From: a virus
Reading direction: 5' to 3' (one strand)
DNA: 38,588 nucleotides
IMG/VR virus record: IMGVR_UViG_3300009093_000023
Location: 1-38,588 of that record
A model generated the notes under the pieces. It did not search any database. It was not told where the DNA came from and saw only the letters and a list, made by a program, of their open reading frames with translations. The translations under genes and the position numbers were made by a program. Shown piece by piece: positions 1,695 through 33,271 of this stretch. Position 1 is the first letter of the stretch; each line of letters opens with the position of its first letter.

Positions 1695-1704
1695 GCTATT
1701 GACA
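1689..1704. promoter_or_regulatory. Dyad operator candidate joining the two -35 boxes
   Basis: The sequence TGTCAAGCTATTGACA is an inverted repeat with 6-bp arms and a 4-bp centre. One arm is the -35 box of the leftward promoter and the other is the -35 box of the rightward promoter. A dimer bound here would control both operons. Confidence 0.6.
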
Positions 1705-1727
1705 CTGGAATATTGCGGGTCTATAGT
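1699..1727 (+). promoter_or_regulatory. Rightward early promoter
   Basis: TTGACA (1699-1704) and TATAGT (1722-1727) are separated by 17 bases, a near-consensus sigma-70 promoter. Predicted start is near 1734. It drives the 1919-8529 operon. Confidence 0.8.
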
Positions 1728-1918: not shown

Positions 1919-2563
1919 ATGGGTAAGCTGATAGCGTTTCATGGCAAGACCAGCATCCGGGCTGAATATATCGCCCGTGTGAAAGCTCATGCCGCAGCGG
2001 ACGAAATCATCCAAGGTAAGTATTGGGAGAACGGGAAGGGTTGCGCGGTGGGCTGCACCATCCACGGTTCCAACCATGCCGATTATGAGAAGGTGTTGGG
2101 TATCCCGCAGGTGTTGGCTCATCTTGAAGACAGAATCTTCGAGGGCTTGCAGAATGGGGAATCCAAGAAGTTCCCGTTGCAGTTCCTTTCAGCTATCAAG
2201 CCGGGCGCTGACCTTTCGATGGTGGGGCCTAAGCTCCTGTTGGCGATACAGAAACGTAATCTTAAGCGCCTTGACGCAAAGGCTTGGTCCGACCAGGTTA
2301 ACGCCATTAAGCTGGTGATTTCGCTCTATTCTGATTTTATCGTGACCGGCAAGATGGATAAATCCGCCGCCAGGTTCGCCAGGTCCGCCGCCAGGTCCGC
2401 CGCCTGGTCCGCCGAGTCCGCCGCCAGGTCCGCCGCCAGGTCCGCCGCCTGGTCCGCCGCCAGGTCCGCCGAGTCCGCCAGGTCCGCCGAGTATTCCTGG
2501 ATGGCCCGAGAGCTTCTTAAGCTACTCAAGAAGGCTCCGGTTGTTTCTAAGCGTGCAGCGTAG
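1919..2563 (+). CDS. Phage protein with Ala-Ser-Arg tetrapeptide repeats, 214 aa
   Basis: The ATG at 1919 follows AGGGAG at the right distance and is preferred over an in-frame ATG at 1856. Residues 1-150 form a conserved-looking globular part with IAFHGKTS, GKGCAVGCTIHGSNHADYEK and LGIPQVLAHLEDRIFEG. This matches a family of uncharacterised phage proteins I recognise by pattern only. Residues about 149-191 are a run of RSAA, WSAA and SAES units encoded by near-perfect 12-bp DNA repeats. It is the first gene after the rightward early promoter, so it is expected to be made early and in quantity. Function unknown. Confidence 0.75.
   Translation: MGKLIAFHGKTSIRAEYIARVKAHAAADEIIQGKYWENGKGCAVGCTIHGSNHADYEKVLGIPQVLAHLEDRIFEGLQNGESKKFPLQFLSAIKPGADLSMVGPKLLLAIQKRNLKRLDAKAWSDQVNAIKLVISLYSDFIVTGKMDKSAARFARSAARSAAWSAESAARSAARSAAWSAARSAESARSAEYSWMARELLKLLKKAPVVSKRAA
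2363..2490 (+). repeat. 12-bp tandem repeats encoding RSAA units
   Basis: The unit tccgccgccagg and close variants (gcctgg, gagtcc endings) recur about ten times in frame inside the 1919-2563 gene. Such arrays change copy number easily by slippage or recombination. Confidence 0.9.
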
Positions 2564-2589
2564 CCCCTTCAAAGGCCAGGAGAGAGCGA

Positions 2590-2868
2590 ATGAGCGTCGG
2601 TCCAGATTTGGTGAAAATAGAAATTATCAAGCCTAGTCTGGAGCTTGAATCGGCTCGCATATTCGTGGACAAAGAAGTAAATATAGAAATGACAGAAAAA
2701 TTACGCGTGGCTGGCGTTTATCCATTTTGGTATTCCTCGCACCCAGAGACAAAGGCAGGGATTTCTTATATCAGGTTCGTTGCTTATGGCGTGCCAGATG
2801 AAAAAGAGGCTATTTCACTTCAATGGGATAACAGAGCGGCACGTATCCGCATAGGATTTAAACCATGA
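2590..2868 (+). CDS. Hypothetical protein, 92 aa
   Basis: The ATG has AGGAGAGAG upstream. The protein contains IFVDKEVNIEM, VYPFWYSSHPETKAGISYIR and ends RIRIGFKP, suggesting a small mixed alpha/beta fold. Family not recognised. The next gene starts within its last codons (ATGA overlap), so the two are coupled. Confidence 0.65.
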   Translation: MSVGPDLVKIEIIKPSLELESARIFVDKEVNIEMTEKLRVAGVYPFWYSSHPETKAGISYIRFVAYGVPDEKEAISLQWDNRAARIRIGFKP

Positions 2869-3101
2869 GCGAATGGATTGCATGTGATGACCGTATGCCT
2901 GAACAGGGCGTAAGGGTCTTGGTATGGGCTCCTGAGCACCATGCGGATGAAAGCATCCTGACAGGAACATTTTGGAATGGACGCACAACGTTTAATTGGG
3001 ATGACAGAAGCTGGAGACTTAGTAATGGAGACCTAATCAATCTCTGTGAAAACTCCAATGCAGTAACTCACTGGATGCCGTTACCGGAAGCTCCCATATG
3101 A
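2865..3101 (+). CDS. DUF551-type protein, 78 aa
   Basis: The N-terminus EWIACDDRMPEQGVRVLVW and the C-terminal THWMPLPEAP are the two hallmarks of DUF551, a small domain of unknown function found almost only in phages and prophages. The intervening part has TFWNGRTTFNWDDRSWR. Two more DUF551-like proteins occur here, at 4583-4987 and 31589-31801. It overlaps both neighbours by four bases. Confidence 0.8.
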   Translation: MSEWIACDDRMPEQGVRVLVWAPEHHADESILTGTFWNGRTTFNWDDRSWRLSNGDLINLCENSNAVTHWMPLPEAPI

Positions 3102-3304
3102 GAACCCCCTCAACCGCAGCGCGTGAGGCCGCTAATGGCACAGACGATGCTTTGCTAAAAGCTGTGTGGGAACGGCTGTCCGCCAATGAGCGCATATGGT
3201 GGACGCTGGGAGGGCGCAGTGCATCCGAAGCTGTTACCCACGCTGGATTGATGCGCATGTCCCCCGAGGAACGCCGACTCTACGATATTCAGGAGGAGAA
3301 ATGA
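3098..3304 (+). CDS. Hypothetical helical protein, 68 aa
   Basis: The ATG overlaps the stop of the DUF551 gene. The protein is basic at the N-terminus and contains ERLSANERIWWTLGGRSASE and LMRMSPEERRLYDIQEEK. It looks helical; no family is recognised. Confidence 0.6.
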   Translation: MRTPSTAAREAANGTDDALLKAVWERLSANERIWWTLGGRSASEAVTHAGLMRMSPEERRLYDIQEEK

Positions 3305-3387
3305 GCGACCTGCAATTAATCGTGGTTTGCATCGTGCTGTTGCTATTCACTATCGCGCTGTTTATTTGGGCGTGGTGGAATCATTGA
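3301..3387 (+). CDS. Single-pass membrane peptide, 28 aa
   Basis: The ATG at 3301 overlaps the previous stop and is preceded by AGGAGG. After MSDLQ the peptide is one hydrophobic segment (IVVCIVLLLFTIALFIWAW) and ends WNH. A membrane peptide; role unknown. Confidence 0.6.
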   Translation: MSDLQLIVVCIVLLLFTIALFIWAWWNH

Positions 3388-3390
3388 GAT

Positions 3391-3413
3391 AAGAGTGATT
3401 CTTTATAAGTTGT
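3391..3413 (+). promoter_or_regulatory. Dispersed start-associated dyad motif, copy 3
   Basis: This 23-base segment (AAGAGTGATT, then CTTTATAAG and TTGT) is repeated exactly at 8087-8109. It contains the dyad CTTtatAAG and lies 17 bases before the ATG at 3431. Confidence 0.7.
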
Positions 3414-3430
3414 GACCAGTGAGGGAAACG

Positions 3431-3574
3431 ATGAGCGCCAATGAGACAAAGACTTTATTCAAGGCACTTCTGGCTCTGTGCTGGCTGCCCTTGGCTGGAA
3501 TCGTCTATGCGCTGGCTTTCGGGGCTGGATTGATGAAGGTCGCCATGCGTGACGGCTGGAACGAGTTTAAGTGA
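3431..3574 (+). CDS. Small membrane protein, 47 aa
   Basis: The ATG follows GAGGGAAACG. One long hydrophobic stretch, roughly residues 10-35 (LALCWLPLAGIVYALAFGAG), is flanked by a short polar N-terminus and a C-terminal RDGWNEFK. The gene follows the dispersed motif rather than overlapping its neighbour, so it may begin a separately controlled segment. Confidence 0.65.
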   Translation: MSANETKTLFKALLALCWLPLAGIVYALAFGAGLMKVAMRDGWNEFK

Positions 3575-3583
3575 GGGTGAAAC

Positions 3584-3919
3584 ATGACCGAGATTAAACC
3601 TGTGGCGCTCCAGATAGAGCGAATCATCGCCAAGCATCGCCGCCATGTGCAGATGAACCCGGGAGTTGGCAAGGAAAAACAGGATTATGCGATAGCCTGC
3701 CTTGACGATGTGGCAGATGACCTTGCGCGGTCTGTTGTCCACTCCGCCTCCGCCCCTGAGCTAGTGGCGGTGCTGACCAAACTCGCAGACTGGAACAAGC
3801 GTTACCCGAAGGGCCGCGAATGGCAATACGGCACGGCGGCCAGGATTGAGCGCGAACTAGACGCAATATGCGATGAGGTTGCGGCGCTTCTCGACCGTAT
3901 TGAGGGGGAACAAAAGTGA
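3584..3919 (+). CDS. Ea22-like hypothetical protein, 111 aa
   Basis: The ATG follows GAGGGTGAAAC. The middle reads ELVAVLTKLADWNKRYPKGR, and the C-terminal half has AARIERELDAICDEVAALLD. These resemble patterns in phage proteins annotated as Ead/Ea22-like, a loosely defined set of early accessory proteins. It is helical and has no enzyme motif. Overlaps the next gene by four bases. Confidence 0.6.
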   Translation: MTEIKPVALQIERIIAKHRRHVQMNPGVGKEKQDYAIACLDDVADDLARSVVHSASAPELVAVLTKLADWNKRYPKGREWQYGTAARIERELDAICDEVAALLDRIEGEQK

Positions 3920-4188
3920 GCGCCTTAGTCTGCCCGTATTGCGACAAGGAATGTGAAGCCGATTGCGAAAGCAACGAACCTGACCGCGTTTACGAGCATG
4001 AGTGTGAGAACTGCGAAAAGAATTTTGTCTACACGCTCGACTATACAGTGCATTATTCAGAGCAACAGGCTCCGTGTCTCAACGGCGCAGAACATGAATG
4101 GGTTCCTGTCAGAGGCTGGCCTGAGCGGGCTTTTGCAGGGAAACAGCGTTGCCAGCATTGCGATAAGCGCAGAGAGGTTAAGCCATGA
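3916..4188 (+). CDS. Zinc-ribbon-type protein, 90 aa
   Basis: The start is a GTG overlapping the previous stop. The protein has VCPYCDKEC near the N-terminus, HECENCEKNF around residues 29-38 and QRCQHCDKRR near the C-terminus, so it can bind one or two zinc ions. Between these lie an acidic segment and HEWVPVRGWPE. Probably a nucleic-acid or protein-binding accessory factor; no specific function can be assigned. Confidence 0.65.
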   Translation: MSALVCPYCDKECEADCESNEPDRVYEHECENCEKNFVYTLDYTVHYSEQQAPCLNGAEHEWVPVRGWPERAFAGKQRCQHCDKRREVKP

Positions 4189-4586
4189 CTGACCATGCCC
4201 TTAAAGCGGCGCGGGAGATAGTAGGCAGATTCAGGACTGGCCTAATGTTCCGCAAGTTCTATCAAGTTGGCATGAACGATGCGTTAGAGCGCAGCGTAGA
4301 TGGAATTGCCGAAATCGTCTCCCAAGCCATCCAGGAAGCCACCGGGCCTTATAGGGAATTGGCCGAAGACCATGCCGCGCAGGTTCGCAAGGTTGAAGAT
4401 GATAAACACGCCCTTGAACTCGCTCTCGCCACCGAGCGCACACGAAGGGAAGAGGCGATAGCCGCGCTTAGTGAACTGCACGCCCAAGTCTTGGGTGAGT
4501 GCCCTTCCCTTCTGAATGAAGATAGCGGCGGGGATGCAAGGCTTGCGCTACGGATTGAAAAGATACTCAGTGAGGACCCCAAGTGA
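4185..4586 (+). CDS. Coiled-coil hypothetical protein, 133 aa
   Basis: The N-terminal 45 residues are basic, then a long helix follows from about residue 60 to 105 (ELAEDHAAQVRKVEDDKHAL and more) with regular charge patterning typical of a coiled coil. It ends in an acidic tail. No family is recognised. It overlaps both neighbours by four bases. Confidence 0.6.
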   Translation: MTDHALKAAREIVGRFRTGLMFRKFYQVGMNDALERSVDGIAEIVSQAIQEATGPYRELAEDHAAQVRKVEDDKHALELALATERTRREEAIAALSELHAQVLGECPSLLNEDSGGDARLALRIEKILSEDPK

Positions 4587-4987
4587 ACATACAGGAAGCT
4601 GCGGAACAGGTGCGCGAGATTCTGGATGCTATCGCGCTTAACTCGAAGCGCTGTCAGGCTGGCGACCCATCATGCCTGCGAGAGGCAGCCTGGAATGACC
4701 TGGCTCGGTCTGCCATTCACGCTGAAGAAGCCCTCCGCGTATTGCTGGCGGCGGTGGAGGGGCAATCTCTGGCATGGATAAAAATTAGTGAGCGCGCGCC
4801 TGAAAATAAGCAAGATGTAATTTTCTTTACCGAATGGGGTGCGCGCGGCAAACAGTATTACAAGGGATTGGCTTTGCAGGGTCGTTTTGTTGACGGAGTT
4901 GCGTATCCCATCATGCCGGATGGTCTAGTGAATTGGGGATGGAGAACAAACCTGTGGATGCCAATACCGGAGAGGCCCAATGAGTAA
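4583..4987 (+). CDS. Helical N-domain fused to DUF551, 134 aa
   Basis: The GTG start overlaps the previous stop as GTGA. Residues 1-65 are a helical segment (EQVREILDAIALNSKRC, HAEEALRVLLAAVEG). Residues 68-134 carry the DUF551 pattern AWIKISERAPENKQDVIFF and LWMPIPERP. This is the second of three DUF551 copies in the genome. Confidence 0.7.
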   Translation: MNIQEAAEQVREILDAIALNSKRCQAGDPSCLREAAWNDLARSAIHAEEALRVLLAAVEGQSLAWIKISERAPENKQDVIFFTEWGARGKQYYKGLALQGRFVDGVAYPIMPDGLVNWGWRTNLWMPIPERPNE

Positions 4988-5264
4988 TCCTGACGCATGG
5001 ATGAACCCTGAAACCCATAAGGTTGTAGGTCCAAAATTCCGTGACGAACTTGGAGAGGAAGAAGCTAAGAAATTTAGCGTTCCTCTTTATGCACATGCGG
5101 CCCCGTCTGCTGCTGCTCCATACAGGGAGCGGGAAGTCATGAGCAACGAAATAGCAAAGTGCCCGAAATGCGGCACCCATCCATTTCAGCATTGGCTTTA
5201 TGGCTATACGCACAAGTGTCATGTCTGCGGCACTACTTGGAAAACTGAGGAGCCAGCCTTATGA
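4980..5264 (+). CDS. Two-part protein with C-terminal zinc ribbon, 94 aa
   Basis: The N-terminal half (NPDAWMNPETHKVVGPKF, then VPLYAHAA) matches a common small phage protein. The C-terminal half, from about residue 54, is a zinc ribbon with KCPKCGTHP and HKCHVCGTTW. An internal ATG at 5140 with GGGAG upstream lies exactly at the junction. The gene therefore looks like a fusion of two small genes, or else encodes a second internal product. Confidence 0.65.
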   Translation: MSNPDAWMNPETHKVVGPKFRDELGEEEAKKFSVPLYAHAAPSAAAPYREREVMSNEIAKCPKCGTHPFQHWLYGYTHKCHVCGTTWKTEEPAL

Positions 5265-5389
5265 ACATCGAGAAACAGCATCTATATCAGGATGCTTCTG
5301 GAATTATCCATGCCTGTGAAGGCAGCGAAGTCCATCCCGGCATCTATCTGGTTTGGACAAAATGCGAACGTGACGTGCCGCGCAGTTAG
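5261..5389 (+). CDS. Hypothetical protein, 42 aa, possibly truncated
   Basis: The ATG at 5261 overlaps the end of the preceding gene. The product reads MNIEKQHLYQDASGIIHACE and later VHPGIYLVWTKCERDVP, then stops at RS. The next gene begins 33 bases later with no overlap, unlike its neighbours. The other frame is open across the gap and encodes AAQLAAIIASHAP, so a frameshift joining the two is possible. Confidence 0.55.
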   Translation: MNIEKQHLYQDASGIIHACEGSEVHPGIYLVWTKCERDVPRS

Positions 5390-5421
5390 CTGCCATCATC
5401 GCGAGCCATGCCCCCAAGGCT

Positions 5422-5661
5422 GTGCAGGAAAATCTAATCATTGAAGAGCTTTCTCAACAAGTCTTGAGCTATGCAAAAGAGAAAAGAAATCTAATTAATA
5501 AATTACGTGGCCGTGCAGAAGATTGGCGATGGAAAGCGAATTGTTCTGATATCGCAGATGCCCCAGCTAATCTAACAACGTGTGCTTCGGAAATAGAGTT
5601 CATTGCGAATGAAATAGATTGTTTCGCCCCACCCGAAGGCATGGGGGATGAGCATGAGTAG
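5422..5661 (+). CDS. Hypothetical protein, 79 aa
   Basis: The start is a GTG with AAGG upstream. The protein is helical, with IEELSQQVLSYAKEKRNLIN followed by LRGRAEDWRWKANC and an acidic C-terminus ending GMGDEHE. Family not recognised. The frame is open back to 5374 without another usable start codon, which raises the possibility that it was once joined to the upstream gene. Confidence 0.6.
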   Translation: MQENLIIEELSQQVLSYAKEKRNLINKLRGRAEDWRWKANCSDIADAPANLTTCASEIEFIANEIDCFAPPEGMGDEHE

Positions 5662-5839
5662 AGGAAAACAGATTAGCGCTGAATTTTATCAGGAAACTAG
5701 GATTAAGCTGGCCCAGGAAAAGGCGCGCAGGCTAGCGGCAGAAAAGGTTATCCAGGTCTTCGCTAATCAGAATAGTTGCCATGCAGATGTGTATAAAGAA
5801 ATGCTCAATTACCGTAAGAAATATCCGGAGGGAACATGA
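5648..5839 (+). CDS. Hypothetical helical protein, 63 aa
   Basis: Two starts are possible, ATG at 5648 and 5654; both lie inside the previous gene's last codons. The protein is one basic helix (RIKLAQEKARRLAAEKVIQV) followed by ANQNSCHADVYKEMLNYRKK. Not recognised. Confidence 0.6.
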   Translation: MSMSRGKQISAEFYQETRIKLAQEKARRLAAEKVIQVFANQNSCHADVYKEMLNYRKKYPEGT

Positions 5840-6129
5840 AAAATAAACTCGCTACTCGGGAACTCCTTTTGTTCATGCCGGAAGATGCGTTAGCAATTCC
5901 GGGCTCAACTAATATCTGTTTCCGTAGGAATGCTAAACATTCAATAGAAGTGGATATTACAGGTAGGGTAGGTCATTCGGATTTGACGGGATATCCAATT
6001 ATCGAAGAAATGACTATCTATCTAGGGAGAGAGGATATTACTAACTCTGTACCAGAGAGAATCCTACAAGACCTTGAGGCTAATATCCTTGAGGAATATG
6101 GGATTAAAGATGTTCCGGTGAAGGTATGA
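5836..6129 (+). CDS. Hypothetical protein, 97 aa
   Basis: The ATG overlaps the previous stop and follows GGAGG. The sequence alternates short beta-like stretches (TNICFRRNAKHSIEVDITG, EEMTIYLGREDITN) with a C-terminal helix (RILQDLEANILEEYGIKD). No known motif. Overlaps the next short gene by four bases. Confidence 0.65.
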   Translation: MKNKLATRELLLFMPEDALAIPGSTNICFRRNAKHSIEVDITGRVGHSDLTGYPIIEEMTIYLGREDITNSVPERILQDLEANILEEYGIKDVPVKV

Positions 6130-6218
6130 AATACATTATGGTGGACCAGAAGGAGAGAGGGAGTGAAAGGCGGAGGAAGATGAGATTGTGGGTTATGAGA
6201 GTGTTAGAGCGGTTCTAG
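6126..6218 (+). CDS. Small basic peptide, 30 aa
   Basis: The ATG overlaps the previous stop (ATGA). The product is strongly basic (KERGSERRRKMRLWVMRVLE). It ends inside the dispersed motif at 6206. Coding status is supported only by the overlap and start position. Confidence 0.4.
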   Translation: MKYIMVDQKERGSERRRKMRLWVMRVLERF

Positions 6219-6226
6219 TTAGCTGT
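6206..6226 (+). promoter_or_regulatory. Dispersed start-associated dyad motif, copy 4
   Basis: The site reads AGAGCGGTT followed by CTAGTTAG and CTGT, with the dyad CTAgtTAG. It lies 14 bases before the ATG at 6241, and the intervening sequence holds AGGAGGGG. Confidence 0.6.
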
Positions 6227-6240
6227 CATTAGGAGGGGTT

Positions 6241-6438
6241 ATGAGTGAACTTTGTCAGACTGCATCTGATATTTTAGAGATAGCGGATTGCCATGAAATC
6301 TGTGACCGTATCCTGACTATGTGCCCGCAAGTTAGTTTAGATGAAGTAAGGTTGCTCAGATGGAGAGCAACCGGGGCATATGATTCACCAAAAAATGAGA
6401 AGCAGCTAGAAATGGCTTGCTTTGGAGATAACGCATGA
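6241..6438 (+). CDS. Hypothetical protein, 65 aa
   Basis: The ATG has a strong AGGAGGGG ribosome-binding site. Five cysteines are spread over the chain (ELCQTA, DCHEICDR, TMCPQV, MACFGD), but not in a recognisable zinc pattern. The gene overlaps the start of the Erf gene by four bases and is likely coupled to it. Confidence 0.6.
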   Translation: MSELCQTASDILEIADCHEICDRILTMCPQVSLDEVRLLRWRATGAYDSPKNEKQLEMACFGDNA

Positions 6439-7199
6439 ACTCAATTGTTAAGGCAGAAGCCCCAGAAGCTATTACGGCCTATCTCAAGGTCATTCAGGAT
6501 GCTTCGGCTAATCCGAATATTGATGTTGCCAAGCTGGAAAAGCTCTTGGATATGCAGGAGCGCGTGATTAAGCATCATGCCGAGGTCGCCTTTAGCCGGG
6601 ACTTTGCCAGGATGCAGGGTCAGATGCCTGTCATTACCGAACAGGGCGAAATCAAGGTAAACGGGCAGGTACGCAGTAAATATGCCCTGTTTGAAGATAT
6701 TAACGAGGAAATCCGCCCCGTACTCCGTGAGCATGGGTTTTCAGTGTTTTTCAAGATAACCAGCGAACCGAAATCCGTTAAGGTTCAGGGTATTCTCATG
6801 CATGAAGATGGTCACCGCGAAATGACCGAAATGATGCTGGAAGCAGATGAATCGGGCTCTAAAAATACCGTCCAGTCCATCGGTTCTAGTGTGAGTTATG
6901 CGAAACGATATGTGCTTTGCGCTTTGCTCAATATCACTAGTCGAGGTGAAGATGATGATGGCAATGCGGGAGGGTCCACTATCCCCTCATGCTGGAGTGG
7001 CCCCAATAAGCGCAAGCATTATCTGAATGAGATTCTGCGATGCTGGGGTAAGAATGATGAACACTATCTAAGGCAGCTTTGGGATGAGCTTGATAATGAA
7101 CAGCGAGAAGATTTATGGAAGGAAATGCGTAACCTTTCTACTCCTAGGAATGAGATTAAAGATATGCTTGCAAAATCTAAAGAGGAGCGTCAAGCATGA
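6435..7199 (+). CDS. erf: ERF-family single-strand annealing recombinase, 254 aa
   Basis: The N-terminal 175 residues match the ERF superfamily of single-strand DNA annealing proteins, of which P22 Erf is the type member. Diagnostic segments are [26 protein letters not shown] and [20 protein letters not shown]. The C-terminal 75 residues are variable and charged. The protein would anneal complementary strands during replication-linked recombination and genome circularisation. It is immediately followed by SSB with a four-base overlap, an arrangement seen in many phages. No paired exonuclease gene is adjacent. Confidence 0.9.
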
Positions 7200-7615
7200 G
7201 CCGGGGAGTAAATAAAGTAATCTTGGTCTGTACAGTCGGTAGAGACCCGGAAGTAAAATATATGCCTTCCGGTGGCGCTGTGGTCAATCTATCGGCGGCA
7301 ACTAATGAATCTTGGAAAGACAAGCAGACAGGAGAAAAGAAAGAACGCACGGAATGGCATAAGCTAACTTTCTATAATCGGCTGGCTGAGATAGTCGGAG
7401 AATATATCCGTAAGGGCTCACAGATTTACATTGAGGGCAGCTTGCGAACTAGAGATTATGAAAAGGATGGACAAAAGCATTACACCACTGAAATTCAGGT
7501 CCGGGAAATGCAGATGCTAGGCGGTAAAGTAGAGCGTCAGGAGAAGCCCGCTCAGACCGGGAACCAGTCCGGGCCAGATGAGGAACCATTCCAAGATGAT
7601 GATATTCCGTTTTGA
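7196..7615 (+). CDS. ssb: Single-stranded DNA-binding protein, 139 aa
   Basis: Residues 1-105 are a complete OB-fold of the bacterial SSB family, beginning [18 protein letters not shown] and including [15 protein letters not shown] and [17 protein letters not shown] short disordered linker leads to the acidic tail DDDIPF, the tip that docks host repair and replication proteins. Length is slightly shorter than E. coli SSB (178 aa) because the linker is short. It probably coats ssDNA and hands it to the Erf protein encoded just upstream. Confidence 0.95.
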
Positions 7616-7617
7616 AT

Positions 7618-8016
7618 ATGGAAGACCTCCAATTCTCCCATCACTTCTCTATGGACCCTGTTTTCGATTCCGTATCGGCTTTGTATGCTTATGAAAAGCT
7701 AGATGATGCGGATTCAGGGGTTACTAGAGAACTATCTGACTCTGTAGTCTTGATGGACTTTGAGGAGATAGCCTGGAGCAGGTCTAAGGTTAAATCTGAT
7801 GGGATGAAGGATTGGCACAAGGAAGCTAATAAGTTCAAGGTCAGGAAAGTACGCAAGCGGATTAACGTATCAGTCTGCCGTAAAGGACACCCTTTAGAGG
7901 GAAATGTCCTCGTACATAATGGAGCGAATACATGCAAGACATGCAATGCAGAGTATTGGAAAGAGTGGAAAAGAAAGAGAGAAAAGAAAGGCTTGAACGC
8001 CTTAGAGAGATTATAG
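7618..8016 (+). CDS. Protein with C-terminal zinc finger, 132 aa
   Basis: The ATG at 7618 is preferred; a TTG at 7612 overlapping the SSB stop is also possible. The acidic N-terminal half is followed by a basic segment and, from about residue 95, a zinc motif VCRKGHPLEGN...CKTCNAE with two cysteine pairs and a His, then a very basic tail. The C-GH-N-C-C pattern is common in phage proteins related to HNH-associated zinc fingers. No nuclease core is visible. Probably DNA binding. Confidence 0.65.
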   Translation: MEDLQFSHHFSMDPVFDSVSALYAYEKLDDADSGVTRELSDSVVLMDFEEIAWSRSKVKSDGMKDWHKEANKFKVRKVRKRINVSVCRKGHPLEGNVLVHNGANTCKTCNAEYWKEWKRKREKKGLNALERL

Positions 8017-8087
8017 GGTTAGAGTGTTTAGAGAATGCAGAAAAGCTAGGAAGGTGGAAAGAGAGGATTCCGGTTGATAAGAGGTGA
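7932..8087 (+). CDS. Small charged helical protein, 51 aa
   Basis: This frame overlaps the last 85 bases of the zinc-finger gene and continues 71 bases past it. The product is highly charged and helical (RVEKKERKERLERLREIIGL, then LENAEKLGRWKERIP). It may be a real overlapping gene or a by-product of the Lys/Arg-rich upstream frame. Confidence 0.35.
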   Translation: MQDMQCRVLERVEKKERKERLERLREIIGLECLENAEKLGRWKERIPVDKR

Positions 8088-8109
8088 AGAGTGATTCTTT
8101 ATAAGTTGT
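8087..8109 (+). promoter_or_regulatory. Dispersed start-associated dyad motif, copy 5
   Basis: This copy is identical over 23 bases to 3391-3413, with the dyad CTTtatAAG. It lies 15 bases before the GTG at 8125, with TTAGGAG in between. Confidence 0.7.
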
Positions 8110-8124
8110 CTTAGGAGATTCAAG

Positions 8125-8529
8125 GTGAGTCAAGCTATCTGTAGCGTGTGCGGTGTTCGTGGAACCGTTAACAATCAGCTTCCAAGCTGTGGGCGAGAAG
8201 ATTGTCCTGATACAGCATTTGCGCGGGCCATGAAACCGTTTCTAGTTCCATCCCCGCTAGTTCCAACAGAAAAGCCTAATGAACTAATTAAAGAAGACCC
8301 TATGCCAACTCGCAAGCCTAAGCATTGGTCTCTATGGGCGCGCATAGTTCGCCGCGTGAAATTCTGGCTCTGCCCGCATTGGTCAATCCGCCATAACGGC
8401 AGACAACGGTATGAATGCAAATGGTGCACAGCGCAGAAAGAGCATTTCTACACAGACGGACCTTGGAAGCTCTATTGGCATCCTACTGATACATGGAGAA
8501 AGGGGTCTCGAGAAATAAAAAGGCGCTAA
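8125..8529 (+). CDS. Zinc-finger protein, 134 aa
   Basis: The GTG start has TTAGGAG upstream. An N-terminal finger (ICSVCGVRG, SCGREDC) and a C-terminal one (LCPHW, YECKWCTAQ) bracket a Pro-rich linker with several basic residues. It is the last gene of the rightward early operon. Its final codons overlap the late-transcript terminator on the other strand, so the two operons converge here. Role unknown. Confidence 0.6.
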   Translation: MSQAICSVCGVRGTVNNQLPSCGREDCPDTAFARAMKPFLVPSPLVPTEKPNELIKEDPMPTRKPKHWSLWARIVRRVKFWLCPHWSIRHNGRQRYECKWCTAQKEHFYTDGPWKLYWHPTDTWRKGSREIKRR

Positions 8530-8546
8530 CCCTTTAGCTAGCGCCT
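8511..8546 (-). terminator. Intrinsic terminator of the late operon
   Basis: Read on the minus strand, AGGCGCTA and TAGCGCCT form an 8-bp GC-rich stem with a 10-base loop, followed by TTTTATTTCT. It lies about 145 bases after the holin stop codon and overlaps the end of the rightward operon's last gene. Confidence 0.8.
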
Positions 8547-8691
8547 CCCACTTCCCCTGTAAGCGCTTAGGGGCCCTTCCGGCGGTTCGCCAAAAGGAGG
8601 GTCTAGAGTGAGTCTAGACGTAATTAGTATATCGAAAATTACCGATATATCTATAGGGTGAACCATTTAAATGACTTATAGGGTGACTTCC
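8547..8691 (+). repeat. Non-coding array of four hairpins plus a direct repeat between convergent operons
   Basis: No gene fits here. Successive inverted repeats are CCCCT/AGGGG (8554-8573), CCCTTCC/GGAGGG enclosing GGCG/CGCC (8574-8601), GTCTAGA/TCTAGAC (8601-8619) and TATATCG/CGATATA (8628-8649). TATAGGGTGA occurs twice, at 8652 and 8677. No U-tract follows any stem on the plus strand. The area could stop or protect the early transcript, or act as a DNA site such as an origin. Confidence 0.6.
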
Positions 8692-9096
8692 CTAACCCTT
8701 TGTAGCCCACGCCTTAACCATCTTCTCGGCGCTACGGCCCACTACATAACCCCCAAGGCCAATCTTAATTAGCTCCCATAGGTCTGGCGGGGTTGGCAGT
8801 GACACGGATTCATGCACGATACCCTGCGCATAAGGGGCAATTATGAAGTTATTGGCGACGATTGCGACAAATACCATCATAGTTATAGGTCGCCAGTTCC
8901 TTTGGAGCCAGGATTCCCCCTGAGCTTCTGCCTTGATAACCCCCGCTTGCTCAGTAACCACGGATGTATCCGCATTGATTATGAGGGCTTCTATCTGTGT
9001 GGAGAGTTGAGCGGCTAAATCCTTGTCCGGGATAGCTTTGCCTACAAGGTCGGTTATCGGTGAAACGAGACCTTTTAAGAAATCAGTTATGCCCAT
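8692..9096 (-). CDS. Holin of the three-transmembrane-segment type, 134 aa
   Basis: The ATG has GGAGATTGCAAC upstream. The N-terminal 60 residues are amphipathic (FLKGLVSPITDLVGKAIPDK), then QGESWLQRNWRPITMMVFVA opens the hydrophobic part, as in the phage 3TM holin family. Two hydrophobic stretches are clear (about residues 70-90 and 105-122). The family forms the inner-membrane hole that releases the endolysin at the set time. It is the last gene of the late unit. The order endolysin then holin is the reverse of the commonest arrangement. Confidence 0.8.
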   Translation of the reverse strand: MGITDFLKGLVSPITDLVGKAIPDKDLAAQLSTQIEALIINADTSVVTEQAGVIKAEAQGESWLQRNWRPITMMVFVAIVANNFIIAPYAQGIVHESVSLPTPPDLWELIKIGLGGYVVGRSAEKMVKAWATKG

Positions 9097-9097
9097 G

Positions 9098-9125
9098 TTG
9101 CAATCTCCGGCAGGTTAGCTATAGT
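9098..9125 (+). promoter_or_regulatory. Rightward promoter of the lysis-region RNA
   Basis: TTGCAA (9098-9103), 16 bases, then TATAGT (9120-9125). The -35 sequence and the spacer length are the same as in both promoters of the 33.2-kb control region. Expected start is near 9132. It reads away from the holin gene and against the late transcript. Confidence 0.65.
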
Positions 9126-9131
9126 TAAAAG

Positions 9132-9296
9132 GCATATGGTGAGTCTTCGGGCTCATGACTAGTGCCGCCGAGCCAGTAGACGGATGCGAAAAATCTGGAC
9201 CGCGTACCCCTCGCGGAAACCTTCCCCTCCCTGGGAAGGGCGATGCAACGTCGCATGAGGAACCCAGCAACTTCTGTGACTTTGCTGGGTTTTTCA
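9132..9296 (+). ncRNA. Candidate structured small RNA of about 165 nt, opposite to the lysis genes
   Basis: The segment lies between a promoter (9098-9125) and an intrinsic terminator (9261-9295), fills the only long gap in the lysis cassette and has no credible reading frame. Successive hairpins are GAGTC-TTCG-GGCTC (9141-9154, a UUCG tetraloop), a possible CCAG/CTGG stem (9173-9198), CCGCG/CGCGG with loop TACCCCT (9200-9216), CCTTCCC/GGGAAGG with loop CTCCCT (9220-9239), and GCGA/TCGC (9240-9254). The two C-rich loops could pair with Shine-Dalgarno sequences; this is inference. I do not recognise the RNA as a known family. Confidence 0.6.
9261..9295 (+). terminator. Intrinsic terminator of the lysis-region RNA
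   Basis: AACCCAGCAA and TTGCTGGGTT form a perfect 10-bp stem with an 11-base loop, running into TTTTT on the plus strand only. The minus strand has no U-tract after the stem, so it stops rightward transcription just before the antisense end of the endolysin gene. Confidence 0.8.
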
Positions 9297-9297
9297 T

Positions 9298-9813
9298 TTA
9301 TAGGGTTTCTATGTAAGCATCTAAGCGGTCTACACGGGCAAGCCATCCTTTTAGAAAGACCTCTTGGTCCGGTCTCTGCTGTATGCGATTTCTATACCAT
9401 TCGCGTCTTAGCGTGTTGTATGCCTGTGCCGTTTCAACCGGGTCTGCAATAGCAAGCGCAGAAGATGATTTAGAACCCCATATACCGTCAGGTGTGATGC
9501 CCAATGCCGCCTGTAGGGTCTTGAGGGCTCCCGATATTCCATGATTCACCGACCAATCAAAATGGCAAACGTCTAATGGGGTGTGCATTAATTGACACTT
9601 AGACGGCTCCCAGTACATGTTTTCATAAAGTTCCCGAGTCTCTGCATCTGTAATCAATGCTACGGACTGTCTTGGAAGCTTTCGGGTGTCGCGGTAATCA
9701 TCATAACGGGACTGTGTGACGCCATGATTAGTGGCACCCCCAGAGTCGTGGGGATTATCAACAAAGCCGCCCTCTTCCCCGAGTGTAAACGTAATAGCGT
9801 GGTCAAAACTCAA
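9298..9813 (-). CDS. Endolysin, GH108 N-acetylmuramidase, 171 aa
   Basis: The TTG start overlaps the previous stop (CATTGA) and has AAGGAG nine bases upstream. Residues 10-35 (LGEEGGFVDNPHDSGGATNH, then GVTQ) are the signature of glycoside hydrolase family 108, and the Glu of EGG is the expected catalytic acid. The second half (VNHGISGALKTLQAALGITP and DGIWG) is the peptidoglycan-binding domain usual for this family. No signal or anchor sequence is present, so release depends on a holin. Length is typical of the family. It cleaves the glycan strand of the cell wall. Confidence 0.92.
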   Translation of the reverse strand: MSFDHAITFTLGEEGGFVDNPHDSGGATNHGVTQSRYDDYRDTRKLPRQSVALITDAETRELYENMYWEPSKCQLMHTPLDVCHFDWSVNHGISGALKTLQAALGITPDGIWGSKSSSALAIADPVETAQAYNTLRREWYRNRIQQRPDQEVFLKGWLARVDRLDAYIETL

Positions 9814-10991: not shown

Positions 10992-11026
10992 GTACCATAT
11001 ACAAAGGCCAATAAGGGAGTTGACCT

Positions 11027-11677
11027 GTGAAATATCTACCGCTGCTATTAGCTTTCGTTTGTAAATCCGTCTTCGCCATGTGTTTTGTAGGCGGAGATAG
11101 TTTGTCCCTCGGACAAAAGCCGTTCATTTTCGATGCATTCCCGAATGAAGTTGTCCGGAATCCAGGGAATGGCAGGGATACTTGGCATTGGCTCGATAAA
11201 TCCCCTGAGTGGTTTTCTACTACTCAGTACAAGATTATCTATTTCGATGTGGGCATGTGGGATATCGCGCATCGGTGCCCGACAGCGGATAACCCTTGGA
11301 CTCTCTGCCCGGCTCCTGCGCCATTTGCAGCGCCTATTACGACTACTCCTAGTCAGTTCCATACCAATATTATTCAGATTGTTGGAATTATTAGGAACCT
11401 CCAGCCTAATGCTCTCATTATTCTTGCGAGTATCACGCCTGTTCCCGATGGTGCGGATGGAAGGACTACCGCAGATGGTGTTTCCTATAATTCTGTCCTG
11501 ACTCATACCGTAGAAGGCGTGAATGACCCTCATGTCATGGTTGACCATCTTTCTAGCGTGATTGGTCCTTACGACAATCTCCACAAAACTCCCACTAATG
11601 TCCATTACACTTCTGCGGGATATCAGATTCTCGCAAACCATGTGATTGATGTTATTAATTCTCATGGAGGGTGTTAA
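11027..11677 (+). CDS. Secreted SGNH-type hydrolase, 216 aa, inverted within the late operon
   Basis: The GTG start follows AGGGAG. Residues 1-17 form a signal peptide (KYLPLLLAFVCKSVFA). GGDSLSLG around residue 25 is block I with the nucleophilic Ser; NPGNGRDTWHWL fits block II, DVGMWD block III and TNVHYTSAGY near residue 194 block V with the catalytic His. The Asn of block III and the Asp before the His are replaced (W and T), so activity needs proof. Members hydrolyse esters such as O-acetyl groups on polysaccharides. It is the only rightward gene between 8.7 and 33 kb and overlaps the end of the fibre gene by four bases, suggesting later acquisition and separate expression. Confidence 0.75.
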   Translation: MKYLPLLLAFVCKSVFAMCFVGGDSLSLGQKPFIFDAFPNEVVRNPGNGRDTWHWLDKSPEWFSTTQYKIIYFDVGMWDIAHRCPTADNPWTLCPAPAPFAAPITTTPSQFHTNIIQIVGIIRNLQPNALIILASITPVPDGADGRTTADGVSYNSVLTHTVEGVNDPHVMVDHLSSVIGPYDNLHKTPTNVHYTSAGYQILANHVIDVINSHGGC

Positions 11678-30597: not shown

Positions 30598-30873
30598 CTA
30601 ATCCTCGATAATCCCTAGGATTTCCTTTTCTGTGCAAGTCCAGAAAATACCGTCTTCATTCTGGAGTTCGGAAAATTGATTTACCAGGACTCTATCCCCG
30701 GGTTTCACTTGGAGTGGTCTGTATGTACCATCGTCTAGGAGTTTTCCTTTCCCGACTGATACAACTCGACCCATCTTAGAAGGGCCAGCAAGAGGAATGA
30801 GGATGCCGCCAGCAGTTTCAGTGGCTTCGGGAATCGGCTCCAAAATGACTCTATCGTGGATAGCATTCAGCAC
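30598..30873 (-). CDS. GroES-type co-chaperonin, 91 aa
   Basis: The start is GTG, overlapping the previous stop. The protein covers the whole Cpn10 fold: LNAIHDRVILEPIPEATETA, GGILIPLAG for the mobile loop (GGIL/IP), GRVVSVGKGK, VKPGDRVLVNQF and the C-terminal TEKEILGIIED. It should cap a seven-fold GroEL ring, most likely host GroEL, to fold a phage protein. T4 gp31 and RB49 CocO are known phage precedents. Confidence 0.88.
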   Translation of the reverse strand: MLNAIHDRVILEPIPEATETAGGILIPLAGPSKMGRVVSVGKGKLLDDGTYRPLQVKPGDRVLVNQFSELQNEDGIFWTCTEKEILGIIED

Positions 30874-33199: not shown

Positions 33200-33227
33200 A
33201 TTATAGGCCATAAAAAATATTTTGCAA
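33200..33227 (-). promoter_or_regulatory. Leftward promoter of the late unit
   Basis: On the minus strand TTGCAA (33227-33222), 16 bases, then a perfect TATAAT (33205-33200). Predicted start at 33192-33193, at the ATG of the YPWA-motif gene. Confidence 0.75.
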
Positions 33228-33249
33228 GTGGGCTGTTCGGGGCTTGCAA
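33222..33249. promoter_or_regulatory. Dyad operator candidate joining two -35 boxes
   Basis: TTGCAAG (33222-33228) and CTTGCAA (33243-33249) form an inverted repeat with 14 bases between. Each arm holds the -35 box of one of the two divergent promoters. Confidence 0.55.
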
Positions 33250-33271
33250 TTTGTTTGCTTTGGGTTATACT
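33244..33271 (+). promoter_or_regulatory. Rightward promoter of the 33.3-34.1 kb operon
   Basis: TTGCAA (33244-33249), 16 bases, then TATACT (33266-33271). Predicted start near 33278, about 50 bases before the first ATG. Confidence 0.75.

Follow-up and report, generated by a model that had tools for sequence, protein, structure and literature searches.

A candidate structured antisense RNA in the endolysin-holin spacer of a phage with P22-type portal and coat proteins

The 201-nt spacer between the endolysin and holin genes of the virus record IMGVR_UViG_3300009093_000023 (IMG/VR; 38,588 bases, the whole of which is the window analysed here) is tentatively read as the seat of a discrete non-coding RNA of about 165 nt, transcribed from the plus strand, antisense to the lysis mRNA across that spacer, and damping or timing lysis. 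The plus-strand unit as such, with a promoter-like site, a chain of hairpins and an intrinsic terminator, is probably real, though not proven. RNAs of this kind are known, as phage antisense RNAs; the orphan sequence and the position between lysis genes are unusual, and the function is inferred. The antisense reading draws on predicted folding that ranks first in the record, on the asymmetry of that folding in favour of the plus strand over the minus strand, and on a promoter-terminator pair that few shuffles reproduce. Counting against it are the lack of a homologue in the collections searched, a promoter score at chance level when taken alone, a predicted start that leaves the holin ribosome-binding site uncovered and a terminator that could also be used by the early operon.

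The lysis-gene spacer and its plus-strand signals

The record encodes portal and coat proteins of the P22 type, along with terminase and GroES-like genes, and the relatives of its portal include phages of Xanthomonas, Rhodoferax, Pseudomonas and Vibrio. The early genes run rightward (about 1919-8529), while the late genes run leftward and end with the endolysin and holin genes, which were named through PF11351, PF05838, PF09374, phrog_3427 and phrog_315 (Table 1). Relatives of the endolysin in genomes are mostly alphaproteobacterial. The genome is compact and the spacer is otherwise empty. The sequence-only reading had placed both lysis genes on the opposite strand with nothing else in the gap, and this agrees with the Pfam and PHROG identities and with the open reading frame (ORF) in the gap, which has no PHROG match. 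A coding role for that ORF (60 aa, minus strand, 9115-9297), which starts right after the endolysin stop and has no Shine-Dalgarno sequence, was rejected, as was one for a plus-strand ORF (9243-9452) that reads through the terminator.

Table 1. Coordinates of the proposed RNA, its parts and neighbouring features
Feature	Position	Strand	Remarks
Promoter TTGACA-17-TATAGT	1699-1727	+	Top-scoring promoter of the record; rightward early transcription likely begins here
Terminator of the leftward late/lysis transcript	8518-8549	-	
Holin gene	8692-9096	-	GTA_holin_3TM, PF11351
Sigma-70-like promoter TTGCAA-16-TATAGT	9098-9125	+	-35 at 9098-9103, -10 at 9120-9125
Holin ribosome-binding GGAG	9105-9108	-	
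Proposed non-coding RNA, about 165 nt	9131-9297	+	Predicted start ~9132
Hairpin 1, C(UUCG)G tetraloop	9131-9166	+	
Linker, weakly structured	9167-9199	+	From pairing probabilities
Hairpin 2, 5-bp stem, loop UACCCCU (9205-9211)	9200-9216	+	Paired at a probability of 0.9 or more
Hairpin 3, 7-bp stem, loop CUCCCU (9227-9232)	9220-9239	+	
Hairpin 4	9240-9254	+	From pairing probabilities
Intrinsic terminator	9255-9297	+	10-bp perfect core, 11-nt loop, U-tract 9290-9294
Endolysin gene	9298-9813	-	Glyco_hydro_108 + PG_binding_3

Several features outside the spacer were observed in passing. The GroES-like co-chaperonin gene (30598-30873, minus strand; phrog_3188) lies near the terminase genes, and a GroES-like gene is also annotated beside the portal or terminase in Xanthomonas phage PBR31 and Phage DSL-LC05. 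A lone GDSL-hydrolase-like gene (11027-11677, plus strand; Pfam match weak and below the cut-off) sits within the leftward late block and is covered almost entirely by a 205-aa minus-strand ORF (11048-11665) with no PHROG match. Strong promoters stand back to back at 1667-1727, likely a divergent control region, with TTGACA-16-TACACT (1694-1667) as the minus partner. A second promoter-like pair is arranged back to back at 33200-33271 (33227 minus, 33244 plus), where both -35 boxes read TTGCAA. Downstream of the holin gene, 8518-8617 holds a strong minus-strand terminator and a further inverted repeat, and belongs to the group of top-folding stretches (z -3.75).

The sequence-only reading described the unit as a plus-strand promoter (TTGCAA, 16 nt, TATAGT), a hairpin chain with a UUCG tetraloop and the loops TACCCCT and CTCCCT (9131-9254), and a perfect 10-bp terminator stem with a U-tract on the plus strand only; all of these parts are present. 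The -35 box falls between the ribosome-binding site and the start codon of the holin gene on the opposite strand, the -10 hexamer is identical to that of the best early promoter, and the predicted start falls where hairpin 1 begins. Pairing probabilities are about 0.9 or higher for hairpins 2-4 and the terminator stem, with the exception of a small inner helix of the terminator loop. The arms of the terminator stem, AACCCAGCAA (9261-9270) and TTGCTGGGTT (9282-9291), can be lengthened to 16 bp if two G-U pairs are allowed, and the stem is followed by a T-run on the plus strand and by none on the minus strand. Hairpin 1 contains three G-U pairs, which become A-C mismatches on the minus strand; these pairs and those of the lower terminator stem suit the plus strand only.

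Folding and signals compared with chance

The predicted fold of 9131-9296 reaches -71 kcal/mol on the plus strand, with a z of -3.9 as against -1.7 on the minus strand. Since the plus-strand fold without the terminator has a z of only -1.5, the C-loop hairpins together with the terminator account for the excess. By shuffling, 9199-9297 has a z of -6.6 on the plus strand and of -3.2 on the minus strand. When 99-nt windows from both strands were ranked for folding beyond composition by dinucleotide regression, 9199-9297 on the plus strand came first of 7698, in a scan whose offset was chosen so as to include 9199; offsets 10 and 20 nt further gave ranks of 6 and 3.

Taken by itself, the promoter stands at chance level. 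By matrix score the 9098 promoter ranks ninth on the two strands, and shuffles hold 7.5 +/- 2.7 sites that score as well or better, and the scan of the record gave no excess of such promoter-like sites. The terminator at 9255-9297 is the best in the record by hairpin energy, an energy that is not extreme when taken alone (-21.3 kcal/mol or lower in 2 of 12 shuffles). Under a strict definition, namely a perfect stem of at least 8 bp with at least four G-C pairs and a T-run, the record holds three terminators: 9289 on the plus strand, and 8519 and 28856 on the minus strand, the last of these inside a coding region. A promoter scoring at least 11 and followed 50-300 nt later by a strict terminator turns up a single time in the window; of 200 shuffled sequences, 3 contain such a pair.

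Relatives, RNA families and competing readings

The closest lysis pair is that of L002 (endolysin 58%, holin 65%), in which the holin start overlaps the endolysin stop, by homology, and leaves no spacer. Phage DSL-LC05, related through its portal (30% identity), has the same layout with a convergent junction at its holin and peptidase genes; by annotation, these overlap by a few bases, again with no spacer. Given these overlaps, the spacer represents additional DNA that a compact genome has retained. Homologous phages without the stems had been put forward as grounds for refuting the proposed RNA. L002 does lack the spacer, yet its absence there does not settle the question, as a lineage-specific insertion would look the same and fits equally well. 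None of the other lysis-gene relatives has the same endolysin-holin pair. Contigs L024 and L025, neither of which includes the spacer, are identical to the record in the compared stretches and on account of this identity probably derive from the same phage. L002 has a large inverted repeat (CCTCTAAAAAA ... TTTTTTAGAG; 6216-6350) downstream of its lysis genes that resembles a small mobile repeat.

In the viral collection, the exact 16-mer of hairpin 3 gave six matches, none with the neighbouring hairpins and terminator, and the terminator pattern gave none. A gapped pattern of the two loops and a T-run produced 17 matches and nothing convincing, many of them coming from a single phage region that recurs, contains C-runs and lacks matching stems. 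A single-sequence covariance model (R1) found no homologue in sets of 398 and 369 genomes (some shared) or in 35 phage records, a weak negative because the recovery of distant members is not demonstrable when none is known. DNA searches of phages and plasmids gave no convincing homologue of the spacer RNA. A 29-nt DNA match in the 398 genomes lies within an open reading frame and was taken as chance.

Apart from the terminator at 9289-9296, the record has no strict plus-strand terminator, and none was found between 8529 and 9260; early transcripts that are not stopped elsewhere would thus end at 9289-9296. The main rival reading, itself rather unlikely, is that this terminator belongs to the rightward early operon, whose promoter at 1699-1727 scores best in the record and whose genes extend to 8529, the transcript crossing the holin gene. 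The hairpins would then form a stabilising structured 3′ end, antisense to the holin gene early on, and the promoter match at 9098 would be a product of chance. Such an end would lie about 770 nt past the last early gene and within the lysis cassette, with a promoter-like site right at the base of hairpin 1 and a chain of C-loop hairpins that a mere end signal does not need. The convergent junction of Phage DSL-LC05 is also without a detected plus-strand terminator, and early transcripts of the group may therefore end without one. The cis-antisense RNA and the early-operon end are compatible, and both may hold.

The sequence-only reading had proposed a trans-acting or antisense RNA. The antisense part stands by geometry, since any plus-strand transcript of the spacer must be complementary to the same stretch in the lysis mRNA; the trans-acting part, through AGGGAG, is not supported, with duplexes that hardly beat those of permuted loops. 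A trans-acting RNA would apply its C-rich loops to the ribosome-binding sites of phage or host mRNAs, in the manner of RF02278/bdhR1 and S17, and is decidedly unlikely here. The loops CUCCCU and UACCCCU do match purine-rich Shine-Dalgarno sequences, and RNAs of the RF02278 type have been reported to act through CU-rich regions (PMC5688073, PMC11722255). The claimed complementarity of CTCCCT to AGGGAG is true as letters, the motif lying at 11014 before GTG 11027 and at 1907 before ATG 1919, and its count over both strands is 25, against about 19 expected in random sequence. Across 56 phage start regions, the CCUCCC segment pairs at -5.3 kcal/mol (permuted loops -4.6 +/- 0.5) and UACCCCU at -4.1 kcal/mol (permuted loops -4.5 +/- 0.6), which is hardly better than the permuted loops. 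The best-pairing start sites are 6241, 3916, 34828 and 5836, with 11027 and 1919 not at the top, and both loops are short, each closed by a strong stem.

The comparison with known families bears on the same trans-acting role. The Rfam search returned no family at gathering scores, in keeping with the earlier description of a candidate new structured RNA. A relaxed search aligned 9218-9298 to anti-hemB (RF02837, Burkholderia RNA 7) at 24.1 bits (E 0.0019 for 501 bases), with a C-rich loop bearing CCUCCCUG, a second hairpin and a terminator in common. Membership of RF02837 was rejected, as the score falls below the gathering score of 49.5 and unrelated genomes score as much or more. The best scores of the model in five such genomes are 22-29 bits, so the likeness reflects a background of terminators with a C-rich hairpin; at E 0.1, matches occur in 8 of 14 control genomes. 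RF02278 (Betaproteobacteria toxic sRNA; gathering cut-off 50) was also rejected, with no match even at E 10, in a search whose positive control gave matches in 29 of 398 genomes at E 1e-4. The retrieved members of that family have a GUCUCCUCCA-hairpin-GAUUC core, whereas the phage RNA lacks it; what the phage RNA has in common with RF02278/bdhR1/S17 is a succession of hairpins and CU-rich single-stranded stretches ahead of a terminator. The likeness to RNAs with CU-rich loops is one of kind rather than of demonstrated descent.

A role on the minus strand, where the spacer would be a 200-nt holin leader that slows translation or marks a processing site, is very unlikely. In its favour, the folding of 9199-9297 exceeds background on the minus strand too (z about -3), and the spacer parts two genes that overlap in relatives. 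Against it, the fold is weaker than that of the plus strand, and the U-tract and the G-U pairs in both hairpin 1 and the terminator fit the plus strand only. Non-functional, recently acquired spacer DNA with chance signals is most improbable: the sequence is an orphan and its promoter and terminator are each near chance alone, but the two occur jointly and the fold ranks first.

Possible antisense control of lysis

In the cis-antisense reading, which is preferred here, the RNA would start from the 9098-9125 promoter and end at 9297, as its signals and predicted fold suggest. A plus-strand transcript of 9132-9297 would be the perfect complement of 166 of the 201 nt of the endolysin-holin spacer in the leftward late mRNA. 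The C-rich loops of 6-7 nt, held on tight stems, would face the G-rich loops of mirror-image hairpins in the lysis mRNA, an arrangement that would suit fast loop-loop pairing. Pairing followed by RNase III cleavage, or else polymerase collision, would leave the lysis message cut or thinned ahead of the holin gene. By analogy with the action of lambda OOP on cII, the thinned message would yield holin at a lower level or at a later time, and so set the time of lysis. Simple occlusion of holin translation is not expected, as the predicted start stops short of the ribosome-binding site and start codon of the holin gene. Early transcripts ending at the same terminator may add to the RNA pool. A more far-reaching version, a new class of lysis-timing RNA in which a kissing-hairpin antisense RNA inserted between the two genes uncouples endolysin from holin, sets the lysis time and possibly also acts in trans on ribosome-binding sites, is unlikely.

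Lambda OOP provides a precedent for an antisense RNA working with RNase III, its target being cII (PMC5869508). Both RNAs are short and antisense to another phage message, with their own promoter and intrinsic terminator opposite the target, present here in the form of sequence signals. The resemblance is one of layout: OOP is 77 nt long and extends across the end of the cII coding region, whereas the target of the phage RNA is the lysis-mRNA spacer. A second parallel is PAK_P4as15, an antisense RNA at the endolysin gene of Pseudomonas phage PAK_P4 that is absent in the related PAK_P3, and for which a role has been proposed from transcriptomics (PMC12197685). It resembles the phage RNA in being a lineage-specific antisense RNA of the lysis region. 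It differs in its length of about 550 nt, in its tie to the endolysin gene itself and in having been seen by transcriptomics, whereas the phage RNA is predicted from sequence.

Few cases of antisense control over phage lysis genes have been documented so far. If the proposed role is true, the spacer would offer a clean RNA handle on lysis timing, one that a small change to the promoter would alter while sparing both proteins.
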